Source: Cumulibacter manganitolerans
GTDB taxonomy: Bacteria; Actinomycetota; Actinomycetes; Mycobacteriales; Antricoccaceae
Length of the DNA: 49,720 bases
Reading direction: 5' to 3'
Assembly (NCBI RefSeq): GCF_009602465.1
Contig: NZ_WBKP01000025.1
Location: 1-49,720 of the forward strand
How positions within the stretch are numbered: position 1 is the first letter of the stretch; each line of letters starts with the position of its first letter. Below are positions 20,510 to 43,570 of this stretch, piece by piece. Both the position numbers and the translations under genes were made by a program. Under the pieces are notes generated by a model. It saw nothing but the letters and a program-made list of their open reading frames with translations. It was not told where the DNA came from and made no database searches.

Positions 20510-20678
20510 GCGCACGCCACAGGGCGGTCTGGGTCACATTATTGCTGTTGCATAACGCCCGCATGCCACTTCGCGGATTGGCAATACGTCTCGGCTAACT
20601 TGGTCGCCTAGGCGTTTTCGGGGAGCTGTGCACGAGAGGTGCGCACGCCTGGGATCGCTACCTGATCAGGAGGTACGC
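20510..20678 (+). promoter_or_regulatory. leader region of the liv operon
   Basis: This 169-bp region without a gene is more AT-rich than its surroundings at 20540-20600 (CACATTATTGCTGTTGCATAAC; GGCTAACTTGG), as expected for a promoter. TAACTT at 20596-20601 is a possible -10 without a clear -35 partner. A near-perfect ribosome site AGGAGG (20668-20673) sits 5 nt before the GTG of livK and predicts strong translation of the binding protein. Confidence 0.4.
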
Positions 20679-21887
20679 GTGGCGCGTCATACGGTTCGCG
20701 GTGTCGTCGCTCTGGGCGCAATCGTCGCTCTGGCAGTGACGGGATGCGGCAGCAAGGAGACCAAGTCGGAGAAGTCGGGCGGCACCGGCGCGCTGTCGAT
20801 CAAGCCGTTGGAGCAGGTCGACAAGCAGGGCAAGCCGGTGGACAAGAAGGCCGGCGGCAACGCCGCCGATCCCGCCGGTGACGGCAAGGCCAAGTGCAGC
20901 AACATCTCGCTCGGCTTCGCCGGAGCCCTGACCGGGGACAACGCCGCGCTCGGCAAGAACATCCGGTACGGCATGGAGGTGGCGATCAAGAAGCACAACG
21001 ACGCCAACAAGGACTGCCAGGTCTCGGTCAAGGAGTTCGACACCGAGGGCACGCCGGAGAAGGCGACCCAGGTCGCGCCGTCCATCATCGGCGACGCCCA
21101 GGTCATCGGCCTGCTCGGCCCGGCGTTCTCCGGTGAGTCCAACGCCGTCGACTCGCAGTTCAACGAGGCCGGCCTGGCGGCGGTCACCGCCTCCGCGACC
21201 AACCCGACGCTGTCGCAGAACGGCTGGAAGACCTTCTTCCGCGGCCTGGCCAATGACGCGGTCCAGGGGCCGGCGCTCGCGGCCTACGTCAAGAACGAGA
21301 TGAAGGCCAAGAACGTCTGCCTGATCAAGGACGACTCCGACTACGGCAAGGGCTTCGCGGCCGAGCTGAAGACCGGCCTGGGCGACCTCGTCAAGTGCGA
21401 GGCCGACACCAAGACCAAGGACAAGGAGTTCTCCGCGATCGTCACCAAGGTCAAGGAGGACAAGCCCGACGTCGTCGTGTACGCCGGCTACTACGCCGAG
21501 GCCGCGCCGCTCGCTCAGCAGTTGAAGGAGGGCGGCGTGGACGCCACCTTCGTCTCCGGCGACGGCGTCAACGACCCGGCGTTCGTCGACGGCGCCGGCT
21601 CGGCGTCCAAGGGCGCGATCCTGTCGTGCCCGTGCGGCCCGGCCCCCGATGCCTTCGCGGCCGACTACAAGAAGGTCTCCGGCGGTGCGGCGCCGGGCGT
21701 GTACTCCACGGAGGGCTACGACCTGACCACGATCATGCTGAAGGCGATCGACTCCGGGGTCACCGACCGCAAGGCGATGGTCGACTACGTGCGCAAGTAC
21801 GACGGTGACGGGCTGGCGCGCCACTACAAGTGGGACGCCAACGGCGAGCTCGAGGAGAACAACATCTGGATCTACGAGGTCAAGTAG
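20679..21887 (+). CDS. livK: branched-chain amino acid ABC transporter, substrate-binding lipoprotein
   Basis: This is a type I periplasmic-binding-fold protein (402 residues). The signal peptide ends in the lipobox VTGC (VARHTVRGVV, then a hydrophobic run, then CGSKET). A Lys/Gly linker follows, then ISLGFAGALTGDNAALGKNIRYG, the family entry motif, IGLLGPAFSGESNAV, TASATNPTLSQNGWKTFFR and PDVVVYAGYYAEAAPLAQQL. It binds branched-chain amino acids or a related solute outside the membrane for LivHMGF, encoded next. The true ligand is uncertain. GTG 20679 follows AGGAGG. A strong hairpin downstream can keep its mRNA level above that of the permeases. Confidence 0.92.
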   Translation: MARHTVRGVVALGAIVALAVTGCGSKETKSEKSGGTGALSIKPLEQVDKQGKPVDKKAGGNAADPAGDGKAKCSNISLGFAGALTGDNAALGKNIRYGMEVAIKKHNDANKDCQVSVKEFDTEGTPEKATQVAPSIIGDAQVIGLLGPAFSGESNAVDSQFNEAGLAAVTASATNPTLSQNGWKTFFRGLANDAVQGPALAAYVKNEMKAKNVCLIKDDSDYGKGFAAELKTGLGDLVKCEADTKTKDKEFSAIVTKVKEDKPDVVVYAGYYAEAAPLAQQLKEGGVDATFVSGDGVNDPAFVDGAGSASKGAILSCPCGPAPDAFAADYKKVSGGAAPGVYSTEGYDLTTIMLKAIDSGVTDRKAMVDYVRKYDGDGLARHYKWDANGELEENNIWIYEVK

Positions 21888-21906
21888 GCCCCGTCGTCCA
21901 GCAGCC

Positions 21907-21952
21907 GACGCGTTCCGGGGCGTGGCCCTCGCGGCCACGCCCCGGACGCGTC
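21907..21952 (+). terminator. livK-livH intercistronic hairpin
   Basis: The left arm GACGCGT-T-CCGGGGCGTGGCC (one bulged T at 21914) pairs with GGCCACGCCCCGG and ACGCGTC around a 5-nt CTCGC loop, giving 20 base pairs. It lies 20 nt after the livK stop and 32 nt before livH. There is no U-tract. A partial terminator or a 3' stabiliser of the livK message would explain an excess of binding protein over permease. Confidence 0.65.
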
Positions 21953-21984
21953 CTCACCGCAGTCCCGCCCACCCACTGGAGCTC

Positions 21985-22998
21985 ATGGTGCTACTCGCGT
22001 CGTCGGCGACGTTGCTTGCCGCAGACTCCTGGATAACGTTCAACATCCAGGGCTTGTTCAACAACTTCATGGAGTACACCGTCAGCGGGTTGACGGTCGG
22101 CGCGATCTACGCGCTCGTCGCGATCGGCTACACCCTGGTGTACGGCGTCCTGCGGCTGATCAACTTCGCGCACTCCGAGGTGTTCCTGGTCGGCCTGTTC
22201 GCCCAGTACTTCGTGCTCCAGGCACTCGGCTTCACCCCCAGCGGTGACGCCTACGACGAGGGCATCGGCCTGACCGTGGGCTACCTGCTCGTCGCGATGC
22301 TGATCTCGATGCTCGCCTCCGGCGCGACCGCCGTCGCCGTCGAGCGCATCGCCTACCGCCCACTGCGCAAGAAGGGCGCCCCGCCGCTGGTCTTCCTGAT
22401 CACCGCGATCGGCGCCTCGTTCGTCATCCAGCAGATCTTCTTCGTCTGGCGCGGGGCGATCCCCGAGCGGACCATCCGGCTCGTGGAGGCCAAGACCCAG
22501 TTCGACCTCGGCGGAGCCGAGGTGACCAACCTGCAGATGGTGATCATCGGCGCGTCCGTGGTGCTGATGATCGTCGCCGACTACTTCGTCAACCGCACCA
22601 AGCTCGGCCGGGGCATCCGCGCGGTCTCCCAGGACTCGACCACGGCCACCCTCATGGGCGTCAACCCCGAGCGGGTGATCATGACGACGTTCTTCTTCGG
22701 CGGCGTCCTCGCCGGCGCCGCGGCCCTGCTGTACAGCGTCTACGTCCCGCAGACGATGGTCTACAACGCGGGCTTCATCCTCGGCCTGAAGGCCTTCGCG
22801 GCCGCCGTGCTCGGCGGCATCGGCAACCTGCGCGGCGCGCTGCTCGGCGGCCTGGCGCTCGGTATTGCCGAGAACTGGGGGCAGGTCGTCTTCGGCGCCC
22901 AGTGGCGGCACGCGATCGCGTTCGTGCTGCTGATCCTGGTGCTGATGTTCCGCCCGACCGGCATACTCGGTGAGTCGCTCGGAAAGGCACGGGTATGA
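21985..22998 (+). CDS. livH: branched-chain amino acid ABC transporter permease
   Basis: LivH is one of the two membrane permeases. The chosen ATG 21985 has GGAG 4 nt upstream. It is 337 residues with about eight helices. The family start is TVSGLTVGAIYALVAIGYTL and VYGVLRLINFAHSE. The EAA-like contact with the ATPase is in AVSQDSTTATLMGVNPERV. The end has GLKAFAAAVLGGIGNLRGALLGG, a LivH hallmark. The ATGA overlap with livM shows an operon. Confidence 0.94.
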   Translation: MVLLASSATLLAADSWITFNIQGLFNNFMEYTVSGLTVGAIYALVAIGYTLVYGVLRLINFAHSEVFLVGLFAQYFVLQALGFTPSGDAYDEGIGLTVGYLLVAMLISMLASGATAVAVERIAYRPLRKKGAPPLVFLITAIGASFVIQQIFFVWRGAIPERTIRLVEAKTQFDLGGAEVTNLQMVIIGASVVLMIVADYFVNRTKLGRGIRAVSQDSTTATLMGVNPERVIMTTFFFGGVLAGAAALLYSVYVPQTMVYNAGFILGLKAFAAAVLGGIGNLRGALLGGLALGIAENWGQVVFGAQWRHAIAFVLLILVLMFRPTGILGESLGKARV

Positions 22999-24296
22999 GC
23001 GCGACAGACGCTGCGCGGGTCCGCAGCACGCACCCCAACCCGGTCGTGCGCTGGTGGGACGACCTCGCCAAGCCGGCCAAGATCGCGCTCACCGTGGTGG
23101 GCATCGTCTTCCTCGTCTTCCTGCCGGTGATGCGGCCGCCGGGGCTGTCCGGCGGCCCGAACGACTTCGCGCTGGTGATGGCCGAATGCGCGCGGATGGC
23201 GCTGATCGCGCTCGGGCTGAACGTCGTCGTGGGCCTCGCCGGGCTGCTCGACCTCGGGTACATCGGCTTCTACGCCATCGGCGCGTACGTCGTCGCGCTG
23301 TTCACCAGCAAGGGCAGCGACTGGGTGGACACCGTCCACATCCCGTGGCTGGCCGCGATCCCGATCGCGATCGTGCTGACCGCGATCAGCGGCCTGATCC
23401 TCGGCATACCCACGCTCCGCGTCCGCGGCGACTACCTGGCCATCGTGACCCTCGGCTTCGGTGAGCTCGTGCGGCTGGCCGCGGACAACATCCCGTGGCT
23501 GAAGGGCAACGGCGGCTTCAAGCAGATCGCCTACCCGAACCTGCTCAGCTCCGAGACGCTGCCCAACGGCGTCTTCTCGGCCGGCAATGTCAACAAGGGT
23601 GTGTTCAACTACGGCGTCTGGTGGTACTGGGCGCTGCTGGTGATGGTCGGCCTGGTCATCTGGGCGACGAACAACCTCGAGAAGTCCCGCGTCGGGCGGG
23701 CCTGGATCTCGCTGCGCGAGGACGAGGACGCCGCCGAGATCATGGGCGTGTCCACGTTCAAGTACAAGGTCTGGGCGTTCGCGATCGGCGCCGGCATCGG
23801 CGGCCTGTCGGGAGCGTTCATGGCGGGGCAGGTGCAGTTCGTGAACAACCAGAAGTTCGACGTCGTGTCGTCGATCTTCTTCCTCGTCGCCGTCGTCCTC
23901 GGCGGCCAGGGCAACAAGTTCGGCGTGCTGATCGGCGCGTTCCTGGTCGCCTACATCCCGGCCCGGTTCGCCGAGATCGCCGAGTACAAGTACCTCATCT
24001 TCGGCGTGGTGCTGATCGCGCTGATGCTCTTCCGCCCGCAGGGCCTGCTGCCGGCGAGGCATCGGCTGATGGGCGCCGGACCCGACGTGCCGCCGGTCAC
24101 CGACCCGGTCATCACCGGGCACACCGAGCCGGACGCGGACGACGAGGGTGCCTCGGCGCACGTCGAGCCGGGCAGCTCGCCGCTGCACAAGACCGAGGAC
24201 GACGGCCGGGGCATCGGGGCGCGCAGCCCCGGCGACCTCGACGGGCGGGCCGGCGACGACCTGCCGCCGGCCACGAACGAAAGGGAGCCGCGATGA
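22995..24296 (+). CDS. livM: branched-chain amino acid ABC transporter permease
   Basis: LivM is the second permease. It is 433 residues: an N-terminal soluble segment, about ten helices with [29 protein letters not shown] in the core (part quoted), [41 protein letters not shown] (EAA loop) and [12 protein letters not shown] hydrophilic acidic C-terminal tail of about 70 residues follows ([20 protein letters not shown]), longer than in classical LivM. It starts at ATG 22995 inside the livH stop and ends in the livG ATG. Confidence 0.94.
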
Positions 24297-25207
24297 GCAC
24301 GCCCCTCGGGTCCGCCGCCCCCGGGCCGGACGCCGACCACCCCGTCGACACCTTCACGCAGGTCGACCAGAGCGAGCTCGACGTCGGCCTCGAGCGCGAG
24401 GTCAACGCGGCCGTCGGCGAGACCCTCGTGAGCCTGCAGGACGTCACGATGCAGTTCGGCGGGCTGAAGGCGATGGACTCGGTCAGCTTCGACATCAAGC
24501 GCGGTGAGATCCTCGGCCTGATCGGGCCGAACGGCGCCGGGAAGACGACCTGCTTCAACGCGATGACCGGGGTCTACACCCCGACGTCCGGCAAGGTGGT
24601 CTTCGACGGGACGGCCATCCGCCGGATGAAGCGCAACCAGATCACCCGGATGGGCATCGCGCGCACGTTCCAGAACATCCGGCTGTTCGCGTCGATGACC
24701 GCGCTGGAGAACGTCGCGGTCGGCATCGACGCGCGCCACCGCACCTCCGTCGTCGGCGCGGTGTTCCGCTCGCCGCGGCATCGCCGCGAGGAGCGGATCG
24801 CCTACGACCGCGGCATGGAGCTGCTGGAGTTCGTCGGCATCGCCGACCGCGCCCACGAGCCGGCCCGCTCGCTGCCGTACGGCTACCAGCGGCGCCTGGA
24901 GATCGCGCGGGCGCTGGCCACCGAGCCCAAGCTGCTGTGCCTGGACGAGCCCGCCGCGGGATTCAACCCGGCGGAGAAGGTGCAGCTGATGGGGCTGATC
25001 CAGGAGATCCGCAACCAGGGCTACACGGTGCTGCTGATCGAGCACGACATGCGCCTCGTGATGGGCGTGACCGACCGGATCGTCGTGCTCGAGTTCGGCC
25101 GCAAGATCGCGGAGGGCACCCCCGACGTGATCCGCAAGGACCCCGCGGTCATCGCGGCGTACCTCGGCGTCACCGACAACGCCGACGAGGACGAGGACGA
25201 GGAGTAG
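24293..25207 (+). CDS. livG: branched-chain amino acid ABC transporter ATP-binding protein
   Basis: This is the ATPase subunit LivG, 304 residues. About 45 extra N-terminal residues precede the ABC core. Walker A is GPNGAGKT, the Q-loop [14 protein letters not shown], the signature the degenerate [15 protein letters not shown] usual for LivG, Walker [11 protein letters not shown], and the switch His is in [12 protein letters not shown]. The acidic tail ends in DEDEDEE. ATG 24293 overlaps livM. Confidence 0.94.
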
Positions 25208-25212
25208 ATCGC

Positions 25213-25926
<714 letters not shown>

Positions 25927-35098: not shown

Positions 35099-35106
<8 letters not shown>
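34108..35106 (+). CDS. cobalamin-independent methionine synthase (MetE)-like protein
   Basis: This 332-residue protein matches only the C-terminal barrel of MetE, with no N-terminal half. Marks: MRIGTTGVGSLPG, LQLDEPSLPGVLAG, the zinc-type VLVHSCAAR (His-x-Cys) and ITTACGLASRTAAEAL (third Cys), so a thiolate zinc site appears intact. The mycobacterial counterpart (Rv3015c-like) holds the same place between trmU and ligA. It may be a methyltransferase of unknown acceptor rather than a full methionine synthase. GTG codons at 34102 and 34105 are alternative starts. The 3' end overlaps the next gene by 8 bp. Confidence 0.88.
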
Positions 35107-38078
<2,972 letters not shown>

Positions 38079-38081
38079 CGC

Positions 38082-39344
38082 TCACTTCTGGTACGGCGCC
38101 CGGTACTTCTTCGCCTCCGCCGAGGCCGACTTGTCCTCGATTATCTTCAGGCCGCCCTCGGCGGACTTGTCGACGCCGAGCACGTAGCTCTCGCGGGTCG
38201 CCGGCGCACCCGGCACGGAGTAGTCCAGATCGCCGGTGAGGCCCTCGGTCTTCAGGTTGGTCACCTTCGCCTTGGCGTCCAGGATGCCCTGGCGGGTGAG
38301 GTCGCCGTCCCCACAGGCCTGCGTCAGGATCGCCTGCCACACGCGGCCGGCGGTGTAGCCGTACGGCACGTACGTCGACGGCTGGTCGGTGAAGCCCTTC
38401 TTGGCGTACTCGTCGCGGATCTTCTTGGCCGCCGGGAGATCGGCGCTGTACGGCGCGTTCGAGTTCATCACCGTCGCCCGCTCGGCGAGCGCGCCGGCGG
38501 CCGTGTCGTCCGCGAGCATGCTGGGGGCGAACGACCCGGCGCTGGCCAGCAGCGGCACCTGCAGGCCCTGCGTCTTCATCTGGATCGCGGCGGACGCCGC
38601 CGCCGCGGGCGCGGTGGTGATCGCGATGGCCGTGACGCCCTCGCTCTTGAGCTTGGTGATCGTCGCCGTGAGGTCGGTGTCGGTGCCCGCGAGCGCCGCC
38701 TCGACGACCTTCAGGTTGTGCTCCTTCGCGTAGGCCTTGGTGCCCAGCAGGCCGTTCTGCCCGTACTCCGAGTCGATGTAGATGTGCCCGACCGTGTCGC
38801 CGTCCTTGACCTTGCCGGTCTTCGCCAGGTAGCTCCAGCCGTTGATCATCTCCACGTCGTACGTCGTGCCGACCATCAGGATCGAGGGGCTGTCCAGGTT
38901 CACCGAGGACGGGCTGCTGGCGGTGGTCAGCACCTTGTCCGTCGTCACCTGCGACTTCAGCGCGGCCATCGCGGGCGCCCCGATCACCTGCAGGAGACCG
39001 AGCACCTTGGTCTTCTGCGTCTGGTACGTCGGGACGGCGTTCTCGGCCTTGTAGGCGATGTCGACGGTGTCCAGCTTGATCTTGCGCCCGCAGATGCCGC
39101 CCGCGGCGTTGATCTCGTCGGCCCAGATCTCGTCGCCGTGGGTGATCGCCAGGCCCGCGGCCTTGAAGATGCCGGACATGTCGGTCTGCACGCCGAGGGT
39201 GATGTCGCTGTCGGTCACGCCGACGTCGGTCTTGACGTCGCCGGAGCTCTGCGCGGCACCACCGGCCGCCTTGCTCGAGCAGGCGGTCAGGGCGAGGCCG
39301 GTGAGCACCAGCGCGGCGGTGGCGATGGAGGGTCGACAATTCAT
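38082..39344 (-). CDS. LivK-type ABC transporter substrate-binding lipoprotein, orphan
   Basis: The protein is 420 residues, starting at ATG 39344 behind AGGAG on the minus strand. The signal peptide ends in lipobox LTAC (ALVLTGLALTACSSK). The mature part is a type I binding fold: ITLGVQTDMSGIFKAAGLAI, INAAGGICGRKIKLDTVD, VLGLLQVIGAP, SPSSVNLDSPSILMVGTTYD and VGHIYIDSEYGQNGLLG. No permease or ATPase genes adjoin it, so it either shares the livHMGF system encoded at 21985-25926 or a distant one. It overlaps the AMP-ligase gene by ATGA and so probably brings in or senses the substrate of that module. Confidence 0.92.
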   Translation of the reverse strand: MNCRPSIATAALVLTGLALTACSSKAAGGAAQSSGDVKTDVGVTDSDITLGVQTDMSGIFKAAGLAITHGDEIWADEINAAGGICGRKIKLDTVDIAYKAENAVPTYQTQKTKVLGLLQVIGAPAMAALKSQVTTDKVLTTASSPSSVNLDSPSILMVGTTYDVEMINGWSYLAKTGKVKDGDTVGHIYIDSEYGQNGLLGTKAYAKEHNLKVVEAALAGTDTDLTATITKLKSEGVTAIAITTAPAAAASAAIQMKTQGLQVPLLASAGSFAPSMLADDTAAGALAERATVMNSNAPYSADLPAAKKIRDEYAKKGFTDQPSTYVPYGYTAGRVWQAILTQACGDGDLTRQGILDAKAKVTNLKTEGLTGDLDYSVPGAPATRESYVLGVDKSAEGGLKIIEDKSASAEAKKYRAPYQK

Positions 39345-40999
39345 GGGGTCTCCTGTGGTGAACGGTGGTGCGGGGGAAGGGGAGTGGTCGGGAGGTACTG
39401 CGGGGGCACGCCGTCGCGGGCCCACTCGCGCAGGGTGGCGGCTCGGATCTTGGCTCCGTTGGTGCCCGCCGTCACCGGCATCTCGGTGATGACGTGGATC
39501 TGTGCAGGCACCTTGAAGCGGGCGAGGCGCTCGGCGCAGTGCGCGAAGAGGTCGGCGTCGCCGGCGCGGGCGCCGGGCCGGAGGGTCACGAACCCCACGG
39601 CCACGGTCTCGTTACCGCGCCGTGCGCCGACGACCTTGGCCACCTGGACGTCGGGGTGCTCGCCGAGCCGGGCCGCGATCTCGTCCGGCTCGACCAGGAA
39701 CCCCTTGAGCCGCAGCGCATCGGAGGCGCGGCAGACGTACTCGAAGCTGCGCTCGTCGGTGAGCCGTCCGAGGTCGCCGGTGCGGAACCAGCCGTCCGCG
39801 GAGACGTTCTGCGCGAGCAGCTCCGGCTGGCCGAGGTAGGCGTCGACGACGTTCGGCCCGCGCAGCTCGATCTCGCCCTGGACGCCGGCCGCGACCGGCT
39901 TCCCGTCGTCGGTGACGCGCACCTGCATGCCGGCGTTGACGAGGTGGCCGCCGCCGCTCCACCGCTGCGGCTCGGGGTCGTCGACGGACCAGAAGGTGGT
40001 GAGCGCGAACACCTCCGACGAGCCGTAGACGCCGACCGTCTCGGTGCCGAACTCGGCCTTGGCCCACCGGGCCAGCGCGTGCGACTCGCCGTTGAAGTCG
40101 GCGATCCCGATCCAGCGCAGGCTGCTCAGGTCGCGATGCCGGGCCTGCCACGCCAGATGGATGCGCCCGAGCATGTCGTCGCCGAAGGCGACGTGCGTGC
40201 CGCCGTAGGCGGCGATGTCGTCGAGCAGCGCCTCGGGATCGAACGAGGGGTGCAGCAGCACGGCACCGCCGGCGTGGATCCCCGCCATGATCGCGGAGTA
40301 GCCGAAGGTACCGCTGTACGGCAGCGGTGCGACGACGACGTCCGACGGGCGCAGCGCGAGGGCGGCGGCGACCTCTCGGGCGTGCTCGGCCACCGCGGCG
40401 TCGCGGTGCGCCGCGAGCTTCGGCAGGCCGGTGGAGCCCGACGTGGTGAACGCGACCGCCAGCTCGTCGGGGTCGCTGCCGTCGGGGAGCGGCAGGTCGG
40501 GTCGCGGCGCCGGCGCCGCCAGCGCGCCGGCCCCGGCGTCATACGTCTCGATGCGGTCCGGCAGGGCGGTACCCGGCGGGGCGACCGGCACGACGAGCGG
40601 CGCGGTGCTGCCGGGGTGCGTGGTCAGCGCCTCGCGCAGCCGGCCGACGAGGTCGAGCCCGACGAATCCGGCGGCCAGCACCACGACCTTCGGCCTGCCG
40701 AGCTCGAGCACGTGCCCCACCTCGGTGACGTTGTACCGGGTGTTGATGCCGACGGCGTGCGCGCCGACCGCCCGCGCGGCGTACTGCCAGGCGATGGCGT
40801 CGGCCCAGGTGGGCAGCCAGACCCCCACGCAGTCGCCGGGCCCGACGCCGCAGCCCCGCAGCAGCCCGGCCTGGGCGGCGACCAGCGCGCCGAGCTCGCC
40901 GCGGGTCCAGCGGCGGTGCCCGGTCGCGGTCGGCTCGATCAGGGCGACGGCGCCGGCATCGTCCCGGATCAGGAGGGTCAGGTCAGCGAGCATGCTCAT
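39341..40999 (-). CDS. AMP-forming acyl-CoA ligase
   Basis: This ANL-superfamily enzyme of 552 residues starts at ATG 40999 with GGGAGG upstream. Motifs: P-loop TTSGSTGLPKLAAH, A5 GVYGSSEVFAL, ELRGPNVVDAYLG, A7 WFRTGDLGRL, A8 CRASDALRLKGFLVEPDEI, and A10 Lys in GTNGAKIRAATL. The pattern fits fatty- or aryl-CoA synthetases rather than acetyl-CoA synthetase. It would activate a carboxylate to its CoA ester. It lies between, and overlaps, the SCP2-hydrolase gene (17 bp) and the binding-protein gene (4 bp), giving one transcript. Confidence 0.9.
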   Translation of the reverse strand: MSMLADLTLLIRDDAGAVALIEPTATGHRRWTRGELGALVAAQAGLLRGCGVGPGDCVGVWLPTWADAIAWQYAARAVGAHAVGINTRYNVTEVGHVLELGRPKVVVLAAGFVGLDLVGRLREALTTHPGSTAPLVVPVAPPGTALPDRIETYDAGAGALAAPAPRPDLPLPDGSDPDELAVAFTTSGSTGLPKLAAHRDAAVAEHAREVAAALALRPSDVVVAPLPYSGTFGYSAIMAGIHAGGAVLLHPSFDPEALLDDIAAYGGTHVAFGDDMLGRIHLAWQARHRDLSSLRWIGIADFNGESHALARWAKAEFGTETVGVYGSSEVFALTTFWSVDDPEPQRWSGGGHLVNAGMQVRVTDDGKPVAAGVQGEIELRGPNVVDAYLGQPELLAQNVSADGWFRTGDLGRLTDERSFEYVCRASDALRLKGFLVEPDEIAARLGEHPDVQVAKVVGARRGNETVAVGFVTLRPGARAGDADLFAHCAERLARFKVPAQIHVITEMPVTAGTNGAKIRAATLREWARDGVPPQYLPTTPLPPHHRSPQETP

Positions 41000-42263
41000 C
41001 GTCACCACCTCCCAGCCACGGCTCGATCCAGGCGTGCAGCCGGTCGGCGAAGTCCGGCAGCTCCTGCGGCGGGTAGTGCCCGATGCCCTCCAGCACAACC
41101 GATCGGCCGTTCGGGATGGCGTCCGCCGAGCGGCGCATCGCCTCCAGGTCCAGCCACAGGTCGTCCGCGCCGCCGACGAGCAGCACCGGGCAGCGGATGT
41201 CGGCGAGCCGGCCGGTGAGGTCGTGGCTGGTCCATCCGAGGAGGTCGCTGTTGCTGATCACCGGGTCCTCGCGGCGGTGCATGGTCGCGATCAGCTCCCG
41301 CACCTCCGCCGGCACCGCGTCACCGACGACGGCGCGCGTACCCAGGTGCGTCCGGTCGGTCCGGCTCGGCGCCGCGACGTCCTCGAGCTCGCGCAGCAAC
41401 GCCTTGCGGTTGGCCCGGCCGGCGTCCGCGGATGCCGCCATGGCCACCGCGCCGGCGAGTCGTGATCCGAGGCGGGTGGCCAGATCCAGCGTCAGCTTGC
41501 CGCCGATCGAGCATCCCGCGACGACCAGGGGCGCGTCAGCCGGGTCGAGGGCGTCGATCACCTGCACCAGCCACGCCGCGAAGTCGCCGAGGTCGGTGAC
41601 CGGCCCGGCCGCGGCGGGCTCGCTGCGACCGTGCCCCGGGTAGTCGGGGGTGATGGTGCGGTAGCCGAGCGCGGTCAGCCGGGGGACGACCCGGCGGTAC
41701 TGCACACCGCTCTGCCCGGCGGTGTGCAGCAGCAGCACCGTGGCGCGGGCCGGTCCGGCCGGCTCACCGATCTCCGCGTAGCCGAGCGATCCGTTCAGGA
41801 AGAGGTAGCTGCCCTGCACCGACCACCGCGGTGCCGGCGGCGGCACGGAGGTCGGCGGCGCGTGCGGTGCGGGCTCCGCGACCCCGGCGACCTGCCGGGC
41901 CGCGTCGACGAGGTAGGCCAGCGGCTTCGTCATCCGCAGGTACTCGTAGCCCGACCCGACGACCGAGAACGCCCCGCCCATCGCCTCGTGCATGTAGCGG
42001 TTCTCGCCGGCCGCGAGCAGGCGTTCCCACACGGCCGGCGGTACGACGAAGGCGAACGTCTCGTCGCCGTCGATCCGGTCGTCGACGGCGCGCACGGATC
42101 CCTTGTGGATCTGGAAAGCGACGCCGGGAGCGGTCCGCTCGCCACGCACGGCGAGCACCCCCTCCCAGGTCTGCGTCGCGGCGGCGAACCGCGGGTCGGC
42201 GGTGAGCGCGTCGGCGATCTCGCGCGCCCATCGGGACGTGCCGATCGTCGGGGAGTCAGCCAT
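40983..42263 (-). CDS. SCP2-like domain fused to alpha/beta hydrolase
   Basis: This 426-residue protein starts at ATG 42263 (MADSPTIGTSRW). Residues 1 to about 120 look like a sterol-carrier-type lipid-binding fold: FQIHKGSVRAVDD, FVVPPAVWERLL and MHEAMGGAFSVVGSGYEYLR. After a proline-rich linker (APPTSVPPPAPRW), residues 145-425 are an alpha/beta hydrolase with LLLHTAGQSGVQY, ITPDYPGHGRSE, the nucleophile elbow VAGCSIGGKLTLD, an Asp in VGGADDLWLD and His in EGIGHYPPQE. The union suggests that the hydrolase acts on a hydrophobic ester or amide presented by the carrier domain. The substrate is unknown. Confidence 0.83.
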   Translation of the reverse strand: MADSPTIGTSRWAREIADALTADPRFAAATQTWEGVLAVRGERTAPGVAFQIHKGSVRAVDDRIDGDETFAFVVPPAVWERLLAAGENRYMHEAMGGAFSVVGSGYEYLRMTKPLAYLVDAARQVAGVAEPAPHAPPTSVPPPAPRWSVQGSYLFLNGSLGYAEIGEPAGPARATVLLLHTAGQSGVQYRRVVPRLTALGYRTITPDYPGHGRSEPAAAGPVTDLGDFAAWLVQVIDALDPADAPLVVAGCSIGGKLTLDLATRLGSRLAGAVAMAASADAGRANRKALLRELEDVAAPSRTDRTHLGTRAVVGDAVPAEVRELIATMHRREDPVISNSDLLGWTSHDLTGRLADIRCPVLLVGGADDLWLDLEAMRRSADAIPNGRSVVLEGIGHYPPQELPDFADRLHAWIEPWLGGGDDEHAR

Positions 42264-42345
42264 GTGAATGCCGTTCCTCTCGAAATCTGTCGGTTGGCTC
42301 GCATCGTGTTGACGCGCCGGAAACCACCCACCTAGCCTCGGCAGG
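42264..42345. promoter_or_regulatory. divergent promoter region between TetR and the hydrolase operon
   Basis: This 82-bp gap holds for the tetR-type gene TTGACG (42309-42314) and TAGCCT (42333-42338) with an 18-bp spacer, so the transcript would start near the ATG and may be leaderless. For the minus-strand operon AGAGGA lies about 11-12 nt before the ATG. A divergent TetR next to its likely target operon is the normal arrangement, but no clear palindrome was seen in this gap. Confidence 0.45.
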
Positions 42346-42978
42346 ATGACGACGCCTGACACCGCCTCCGGACCCGCTCTCGAGCACGAGGTGCTGGCGC
42401 CGTCGGGCCGGGCCGGCGAGTCGGCGATCCTGTCGGCGGCGTTGCAGGTGCTCGGCGCGCGGGGCTACAACGGGATGTCGATGCGGGACGTCGCGACGAC
42501 CGCCGGCACGAGCCTGTCGAACCTGTACAACTACTTCCCGTCCAAGGTCGACCTCGTGGCGACCCTGCTGACCATCACCAACAACGATCTGCTGGCGCGC
42601 CTGGAAGCCGCGGTCGCGGGCGCGTCGCCGGACGCGACCGGGCGGTTGCGGGCCGCCATCGGCGCCTACGTCGCCTTCAACGTCGAGAAGACCACCGCGA
42701 GCCTCGTCGGCATCAGCGAGATCCGTTACATCGCCGGGAACCAGCGCGCGACGGTGGTCGCGGCGCGCGACCGCACCGAGCAGATCTTCAAGGAGATCAT
42801 CCGTGACGGGGCGCGGGCCGGCGAGTTCGGCACCGCGCGCGCCGACGCCGCCGCCCGGGCGCTGGTGACCATGCTGTCGGCGATGTCGCTGTGGTACCGC
42901 CCGGAGGGACCGCTCGGGGCCGACGAGCTCGCGGCCCAGCAGATCGACCTCGGCATGGCGCTGGTCGAGGCGCGCTAG
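42346..42978 (+). CDS. TetR-family transcriptional regulator
   Basis: This 210-residue protein starts at ATG 42346. The N-terminal helix-turn-helix spans about residues 25-73: AILSAALQVLGARGYNGMSM, RDVATTAGTSLSNLYNYFPSK and VDLVATLLTI. The C-terminal ligand domain (IGAYVAFNVEKTTASLVGI, ARDRTEQIFKEIIRDGARAGEF) resembles regulators of lipid or acyl-CoA catabolism, which usually respond to a CoA ester. By position it probably represses the divergent hydrolase-ligase-binding protein operon and possibly the SnoaL gene downstream. Confidence 0.92.
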   Translation: MTTPDTASGPALEHEVLAPSGRAGESAILSAALQVLGARGYNGMSMRDVATTAGTSLSNLYNYFPSKVDLVATLLTITNNDLLARLEAAVAGASPDATGRLRAAIGAYVAFNVEKTTASLVGISEIRYIAGNQRATVVAARDRTEQIFKEIIRDGARAGEFGTARADAAARALVTMLSAMSLWYRPEGPLGADELAAQQIDLGMALVEAR

Positions 42979-42982
42979 CCGC

Positions 42983-43477
42983 TCAGCCCGCATAGCCGGT
43001 GTCCGCGGCGGCCCGGGCGGCGCCGTAGCCGAACGTCCCGCGGTCCCAGGCCTGGTCGGCGGGCACCCACCAGAAGAACGACACCTTGCGCTCGGTGAAG
43101 CGCCACCGCCCGTCCGCGCATCGCACCATGCGGTCGGTGTACCGGCCGGCGGCGACGTGCGCCTCGCCGTCCACGACGCACGGCTGGTAGAGCCAGGTGG
43201 CGCCGGTGGCCGCGTCGCCGTCGAGGTCGATCGTCTCGTTGGCCGAGAAGTGCCACCACGCGGTCAGCCCGCCGGCGGCCAGACCCGAGAAGAACTCGAC
43301 CAGATCGGCACGGCCGCGGGCCGTCGACAGGCCCACGAACGCGCCGTCCTCGGTGAACAGCTCGGCGAGCTCCGCCCACCGGCCGTCGTCGAGCAGCTGG
43401 CAGTACCGCGCCCGCAGCTGCTGCAGGTCGTGCAGGTCCTCCAGGCGCCGAACCCGGGACTCGAGGGTGTCGTCCAT
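42983..43477 (-). CDS. SnoaL/NTF2-like protein
   Basis: This 164-residue protein starts at ATG 43477 behind GGAGG. Marks of the SnoaL_4/dehydratase-like group: LHDLQQLRARYCQLLDDGRW, ELFTEDGAF, WWHFSANETIDLDGD, YTDRMVRCADGRWRFTERKV. This fold includes hydroxylating-dioxygenase small subunits, steroid isomerases and cyclases. The reaction is unknown. It converges on tetR with 4 bp between the ends. An operator-like palindrome lies upstream at 43496-43507. Confidence 0.85.
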   Translation of the reverse strand: MDDTLESRVRRLEDLHDLQQLRARYCQLLDDGRWAELAELFTEDGAFVGLSTARGRADLVEFFSGLAAGGLTAWWHFSANETIDLDGDAATGATWLYQPCVVDGEAHVAAGRYTDRMVRCADGRWRFTERKVSFFWWVPADQAWDRGTFGYGAARAAADTGYAG

Positions 43478-43495
43478 CGCGCTGCCTCCAAGAAC

Positions 43496-43507
43496 GAACG
43501 ATCGTTC
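43496..43507 (-). promoter_or_regulatory. TetR-type operator palindrome
   Basis: The perfect 12-bp palindrome GAACGATCGTTC lies 19 bp upstream of the SnoaL-like start. The GAACG-N2-CGTTC form is common among operators of TetR regulators controlling lipid and acyl-CoA genes. The regulator at 42346-42978 is the obvious candidate, but this cannot be proved from sequence. Confidence 0.55.
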
Positions 43508-43570
43508 ATGTGAGTGAAACAGCCGGTGGCCCATCCGTCAATACGTCTGCGGGGATCCGGCCGGGCCGGC

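Follow-up and report, generated by a model that had tools for sequence, protein, structure and literature searches.

The window analysed here is a stretch of 49,720 nucleotides from the actinobacterium Cumulibacter manganitolerans (assembly GCF_009602465.1, contig NZ_WBKP01000025.1, positions 1 to 49,720 of the forward strand), and the genes in question lie at its positions 38082-43507, between ligA and an ACT gene. A sequence-only reading had proposed five genes there as an undescribed catabolic module. Here, we describe these genes, their control elements and their relatives, and conclude with moderate confidence that the window carries a copy of an actinobacterial module for coenzyme A (CoA)-dependent carboxylic-acid catabolism that was inserted here, probably by horizontal transfer, and has a derived form in which the transporter seems to have changed. 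The features of the locus are as follows:

38082-39344, minus strand: LivK-type (Peripla_BP_6) lipoprotein, an orphan binding protein and last gene of the likely operon (Pfam Peripla_BP_6, 1.6e-41)
39341-40999, minus strand: predicted AMP-forming acyl-CoA ligase, PRK06164-like (Pfam AMP-binding, 6.5e-50; C-terminal domain, 6.4e-11)
40983-42263, minus strand: fusion of an SCP2-like domain with an alpha/beta hydrolase (Pfam Abhydrolase_1, 8.7e-19)
41862-42263, minus strand: SCP2-like domain of the fusion protein (fold match)
42264-42345, no strand: 82-bp intergenic region between the divergent TetR and hydrolase genes, without a recognisable operator copy
42346-42978, plus strand: TetR-family regulator (Pfam TetR_N, 9.8e-14; TetR_C_24, 1.1e-27)
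42983-43477, minus strand: SnoaL_4-type protein, candidate dehydratase or isomerase (Pfam SnoaL_4, 4.3e-25)
43491-43512, no strand: predicted TetR operator with centre GAACGATCGTTC at 43496-43507 (29.1 bits against the position weight matrix described below)
43513-43541, minus strand: candidate promoter TTGACG-17-TTCACT 5' of SnoaL, read by eye and resembling the symporter promoter of a related locus, L068

All five genes of the sequence-only reading lie where it placed them and belong to the families it gave. The overlap that it described among the three minus-strand genes for binding protein, ligase and hydrolase is also real, and these three likely form an operon: the LivK start (39344) and the ligase stop share an ATGA, and the ligase start overlaps the hydrolase gene by 17 nucleotides. 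A fourth gene on the minus strand, SnoaL, lies beyond the TetR gene, which is divergent from the hydrolase gene and convergent with SnoaL; the SnoaL reading frame stays open to 43534. The motifs of ligase and hydrolase read as intact.

Much of this gene set recurs in other bacteria. Our panel consists of 36 loci outside the window, namely 29 named loci (with at most about 8 kb of flank), six from genomes of an order-level sample (L068, L070-L073 and L115) and one stretch of a Sinorhizobium mexicanum plasmid (L118), and presence was counted by tblastn at 1e-3. Two of the records, L044 and L046 (Pseudonocardia halophobica VKM Ac-1069 and P. autotrophica NRRL B-16064), are identical across a 17-kb stretch, which leaves 35 distinct loci. 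The ligase and the SCP2-like domain are each found in 35 of the 36 (in L055 and L063 the ligase match is not directly behind the hydrolase), a MaoC domain in 32 (the exceptions being L055, L060, L067 and L068), TetR in 30 at E up to 1e-10 (31 at 1e-3, the extra match, in L051, being a different gene), and a metabolite:H+ symporter in 28 (27 of them at 60% identity or more; panel members are mostly 60-83% identical). The usual arrangement is a MaoC-SCP2 protein of about 300 residues, then a separate hydrolase and the ligase. With its TetR, SCP2-like domain, hydrolase and ligase, the window matches this conserved MaoC-hydrolase-ligase module; it lacks the MaoC domain and the symporter, and we class it as a variant. 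LivK is found in 0 of the 36 loci, as is the other binding protein of the window. The five-gene set first proposed thus does not recur, and the module survives in reduced form: four of its genes recur together and LivK does not. What the comparison supports is a set of genes that is conserved, includes a TetR of its own and most likely serves CoA-dependent catabolism.

Some loci add an acyl-CoA dehydrogenase (by Pfam), a CoA-transferase III, a CitE-like lyase or a thiolase, the last standing behind the ligase in some, and these extra genes suggest beta-oxidation-like steps; none of the four kinds stands beside the window copy. Among the named loci the module is mostly found in Pseudonocardiaceae, and it also occurs in Streptomyces, Blastococcus, Prescottella, Marmoricola and the Sinorhizobium plasmid. 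In the order sample 195 of 200 genomes match the hydrolase at 1e-3, mostly through general hydrolases, and seven, including the source genome, reach E of 6.0e-78 or below; in the phylum sample only the source genome, one of 396, matches at 1e-40, and no relative was found in viral contigs. We found no description of the gene set in a search by title of the open-licence PMC literature, where papers on MaoC, SCP2 and CoA ligases mostly concern steroids. In the Sinorhizobium plasmid (L118:10586-23402) the module lies beside a PEP-mutase-family protein, a thiolase, an acyl-CoA dehydrogenase and an ETF subunit, along with a CoA-transferase and a lyase that are nearest to 2-methylfumaryl-CoA isomerase and RipC, both below cut-off; the neighbourhood is reminiscent of itaconate or mesaconate routes.

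The genes of the window do interrupt a conserved neighbourhood, as had been claimed. In all four other genomes of the family that were examined (G002, G031, G018 and G041), ligA and the ACT gene lie side by side and converge, with spacings that run from an overlap of 4 bases to a gap of 144; the window has about 5.5 kb in this place, beginning 3 bases past the ligA stop, and we therefore regard this stretch as inserted. One of the four, G018, has the module at another place (L068), and the other three have no close relative of the hydrolase (best E 3.9e-14). No insertion marks were seen among the 20 largest of at least 60 direct repeat families or the 25 longest of 140 inverted pairs, nor was a clear shift of GC content seen; the two tRNAs of the window sit near 19 kb. 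In several Pseudonocardia loci (L040, L044 with its duplicate L046, L045 and L049) the module is near ligA too, but upstream and in another arrangement, which may be coincidence. Directly before ligA, at 35099-36004, the window encodes a protein with two SnoaL_2 stretches, which is kept beside ligA in L112, L113 and L114 (52-55% identity) and was not seen in L111.

The ligase has both its AMP-binding and C-terminal domains, and its sequence marks it as a probable AMP-forming acyl-CoA ligase; its best NCBIfam model, NF004814 (PRK06164), scores 513.6 bits, under the curated equivalog cut-off of 677. In the fusion protein, roughly residues 1-134 make up the SCP2-like domain and roughly residues 145-426 the alpha/beta hydrolase, whose Ser-Asp-His motifs (GCSIGG, D and GHYP) are conserved. 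The Thioesterase model PF00975 matches the hydrolase above its cut-off (33.1 against 26.4 bits) and below Abhydrolase_1 (68.6), and 21 NCBIfam models match, none reaching its cut-off. The earlier assignment of an SCP2 domain is supported by fold: the AlphaFold model of residues 1-134 (pLDDT 91.5) aligns with sterol carrier protein 2 (2cx7_A) over 120 residues (Z 14.9, root-mean-square deviation (rmsd) 2.5), with a Foldseek value of 2.0e-07. The fusion protein matches no Pfam SCP2 model at E up to 10, and we therefore call the domain SCP2-like only. Among the 35 panel loci where the domain occurs, only L068 has it fused to the hydrolase, and the hydrolases of the window and L068 are sisters in the tree with a support of 100/100.

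A perfect palindrome at 43496-43507, absent from the sequence-only reading, was first noticed where the SnoaL frame of the window and the symporter of L068 begin, and was then tested elsewhere. It occurs with at most one mismatch in most panel loci. Across 610,588 panel bases there are 39 exact copies and 69 with one mismatch or none; five Markov shuffles gave no exact copies, and 0, 0, 2, 1 and 1 near copies. Most copies in the 30 TetR-bearing loci are close to the TetR gene: within 700 bases of it there are 34 exact copies and, counting these, 59 near ones, against only 3 and 4 elsewhere; by hand count, 29 of these loci have a copy with at most one mismatch. A position weight matrix built from 67 sites in 33 loci, with the window and L068 left out, has the consensus GGTACGAACGATCGTTCGTACC and gives 29.1 bits for the window site and 29.4 for that of L068, the next non-overlapping window site reaching 0.07. 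Seven places in the source genome fit GAACGNNCGTTC, and the AT centre is found only in the window site. Moreover, the window TetR stretch GTSLSNLYNYFPSK, which we take to be the recognition helix, equals the consensus, and L060, where the TetR differs at the putative recognition helix, has no operator site. The operator core was not found in any relevant paper of the open-licence PMC literature. In L047 (7303-7453) and L051 (7316-7425) operators remain between the symporter and MaoC genes.

The sole operator site of the window precedes SnoaL, which, together with the presence of SnoaL near TetR in several lineages, bears out the earlier view that this gene is part of the module. By eye, the candidate promoter of the window SnoaL is like that of the symporter-SnoaL pair in L068. 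The simplest reading is that this promoter was kept after the symporter gene was lost.

How does a LivK-type protein come to stand behind the ligase of such a module? By sequence, its closest solved relative is 4n03 (7.4e-75), an entry titled 'Fatty acid ABC transporter substrate-binding protein from Thermomonospora curvata'; the LivK model (pLDDT 89.6) matches its fold with a Z of 59.0 and an rmsd of 1.8 over 384 aligned residues at 36% identity, and further fold matches include aromatic-acid binders. The symporter of the relatives (the L040 protein) fits best a metabolite/H+ symporter model and next a shikimate transporter model, both below cut-off; the metabolite:H+ symporter group carries polar acids and betaines. 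The source genome has no close relative of this symporter (best 35% identity, then 32% and 29%) or of the MaoC protein (best 34%). Because the relatives pair this gene set with another uptake protein, the window copy appears to have changed its uptake, and the 4n03-type binding protein may have replaced the symporter.

No dedicated permease or ATPase genes stand beside 38082-39344, so that this locus does not encode a complete LivKHMGF importer. The sequence-only reading suggested that the nearby livHMGF might be shared. This is now less likely, since that set (livKHMGF, 20628-25926) is complete and canonical and includes a binding protein of its own that shares only 25% identity with the module LivK over 267 residues, while on contig 50 of the same genome LivFGHM is followed by six binding-protein paralogues that are 51-56% identical to the module LivK. 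The contig-50 LivFGHM is thus the likelier partner; it is not proven, because the genome has 11 BPD_transp_2 matches across 6 contigs. A LivFGHM of the contig-50 type stands beside one to nine LivK relatives in all five family genomes: five to nine tandem relatives lie directly 3' of one LivFGHM in L069:9330-17628 (contig 50 itself), L123, L124 and L125, and a single copy in L126. Perhaps one such LivFGHM with its tandem binding-protein genes also serves, as a hub, orphan binding proteins in separately regulated catabolic operons, the window module being an exchange of symporter for plug-in protein caught in transition; this idea is tentative, and the open-licence PMC literature held nothing fitting on shared or tandem binding proteins.

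Considering all of these features together, we favor the following scheme. An acid would enter the cell and be converted by the ligase to its CoA ester, which would release TetR from the palindrome and de-repress the module; the activated acid would then be processed by the hydrolase with its SCP2-like domain and by SnoaL, acting as a dehydratase or isomerase. Before the window copy and L068 separated, their ancestor probably gave up the MaoC part and joined the SCP2-like domain to its hydrolase. The window copy would have lost the symporter gene as well, leaving SnoaL behind a promoter-operator like that of the L068 symporter, and the LivK protein encoded behind the ligase would work with LivFGHM encoded elsewhere, most likely on contig 50.

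The order of steps could also be the one that the sequence-only reading proposed, in which LivK captures a hydrophobic ester or amide, the hydrolase cuts it and the ligase activates the freed acid. The resemblance of the hydrolase to esterases and 3-oxoadipate enol-lactonase, the 4n03 type of the binding protein and the gene order of hydrolase before ligase would all suit this order. However, the relatives take up their substrate with a metabolite:H+ symporter, none of the matched NCBIfam models reaches its cut-off, and the pairing of their hydrolase with MaoC, in some loci also with thiolase, speaks for later steps. With the hydrolase adjoining the MaoC-SCP2 gene and a thiolase behind the ligase in some loci, later hydrolase steps fit equally well, and we consider the ester-first order possible and somewhat doubtful. 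LivK could also be a bystander: binding proteins of this type are expanded, and one of the many may have ended up behind the ligase while another transporter imports the substrate of the module. Each of the five family genomes has 10-21 LivK matches (a few of them partial), so that its placement could be chance, and these lie amid varied genes, as near adk and map in L094 (by eye); LivK is missing from the whole panel, and the genome retains other symporters of the kind. Nevertheless, LivK is coupled to the ligase through the shared ATGA, the module has no symporter, and several other orphan copies are also near CoA enzymes: one in L093 near a thiolase, a CoA-transferase III and an ATP-grasp succinyl-CoA-ligase-like protein, and those in L092 and L099 within about 6 kb of AMP ligases, although by eye the copies in L094 and L100 are not. 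The place of the module LivK among 17 paralogues in the tree is weakly supported, and we give the bystander explanation about the same low chance as the ester-first order. A non-catabolic tailoring or detoxification set, with CoA activation by the ligase, thioester release by the hydrolase and SnoaL as cyclase, is improbable, for although SnoaL-type proteins include cyclases and the Thioesterase model matches the hydrolase above cut-off, symporter, MaoC, thiolase or acyl-CoA dehydrogenase genes adjoin the module in relatives and no polyketide or peptide synthetase is seen by eye among the window genes.

Besides the possible chance placement of LivK, several observations weigh against the acid-catabolic module with exchanged uptake that we favor. 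The panel loci were chosen by their hydrolase, and its presence in them is therefore no evidence. SnoaL is scarce, with matches in 7 of the 36 loci at 1e-3 and in only 6 at 1e-10, and L055 and L060 have no MaoC-domain match at 1e-3 either. Neither in the window nor in L068 does an operator copy precede the operon of hydrolase, ligase and LivK (the best score in the 82-bp region of the window is -17.1), which leaves co-regulation of the operon with SnoaL unsupported. The pairing of TetR and operator is also imperfect: L047 and L051 keep operators with no TetR beside them (the weak TetR match in L051 is the other gene), L060 has a divergent TetR without operator, L065, L067 and L115 have neither, and L118 has no TetR and a single one-mismatch copy, inside its hydrolase gene. 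Finally, the entry title is the only source for the ligand of 4n03, and the other symporters of the same kind in the source genome, at 29-35% identity, could serve for uptake.

The operator offers a direct experimental entry to a catabolic regulon of which our limited literature search found no description. The likely replacement of a symporter by an orphan binding protein would illustrate how evolution recombines uptake and catabolism, and may suggest what the expanded set of orphan LivK-like proteins in these bacteria does.

The module shares parts with several known systems. The window LivK is closest to 4n03 in both Peripla_BP_6 fold and sequence; it differs in being only 36% identical and in having no adjoining permease gene. 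The proteins of the relatives in which a MaoC hydratase and an SCP2-like domain are joined resemble the MaoC-SCP2L half of peroxisomal multifunctional enzyme 2 (MFE-2), and the window SCP2-like domain matches the fold of human MFE-2 SCP2L (1ikt, Z 8.1); unlike MFE-2, the window protein has a hydrolase in place of MaoC, and no dehydrogenase domain. The window SnoaL shares the SnoaL_4 domain with BaiE (4l8p, profile match 7e-11), although five solved proteins outscore BaiE, 2chc and 2rfr being best. Tyr25, Asp30 and His76 of the window protein, counted by eye, align with Tyr, Asp and His of BaiE, whereas one BaiE Asp, which we take to be Asp106, aligns with a non-acidic residue. According to PMC10382948, BaiE is a SnoaL_4 protein that recognises both a CoA ester and a free acid, and a passage in PMC13101464 describes SteC, of steroid catabolism, as another SnoaL-like dehydratase. 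Since the window SnoaL matches BaiE among others and SteC is of the same type, a dehydratase role is plausible by analogy. In a profile search the window TetR matches 284 distinct PDB sequences, KstR2 (4w1u, 1.2e-23) and FadR among them, with 3vpr, 3him and Mce3R outscoring KstR2. The KstR2-FadD3 regulon of HIP steroid catabolism in actinobacteria is described, in a passage of PMC5380842, as having a TetR repressor, an acyl-CoA ligase that opens the pathway, and the CoA ester produced by this ligase as effector. The window gene set differs, with no HIP catabolic genes among its five, and we do not claim membership of the HIP regulon. What the two have in common is a TetR repressor with an acyl-CoA ligase, and, given the KstR2-like and FadR-like relatives of its TetR, we propose that here too the repressor may be released by a CoA ester.

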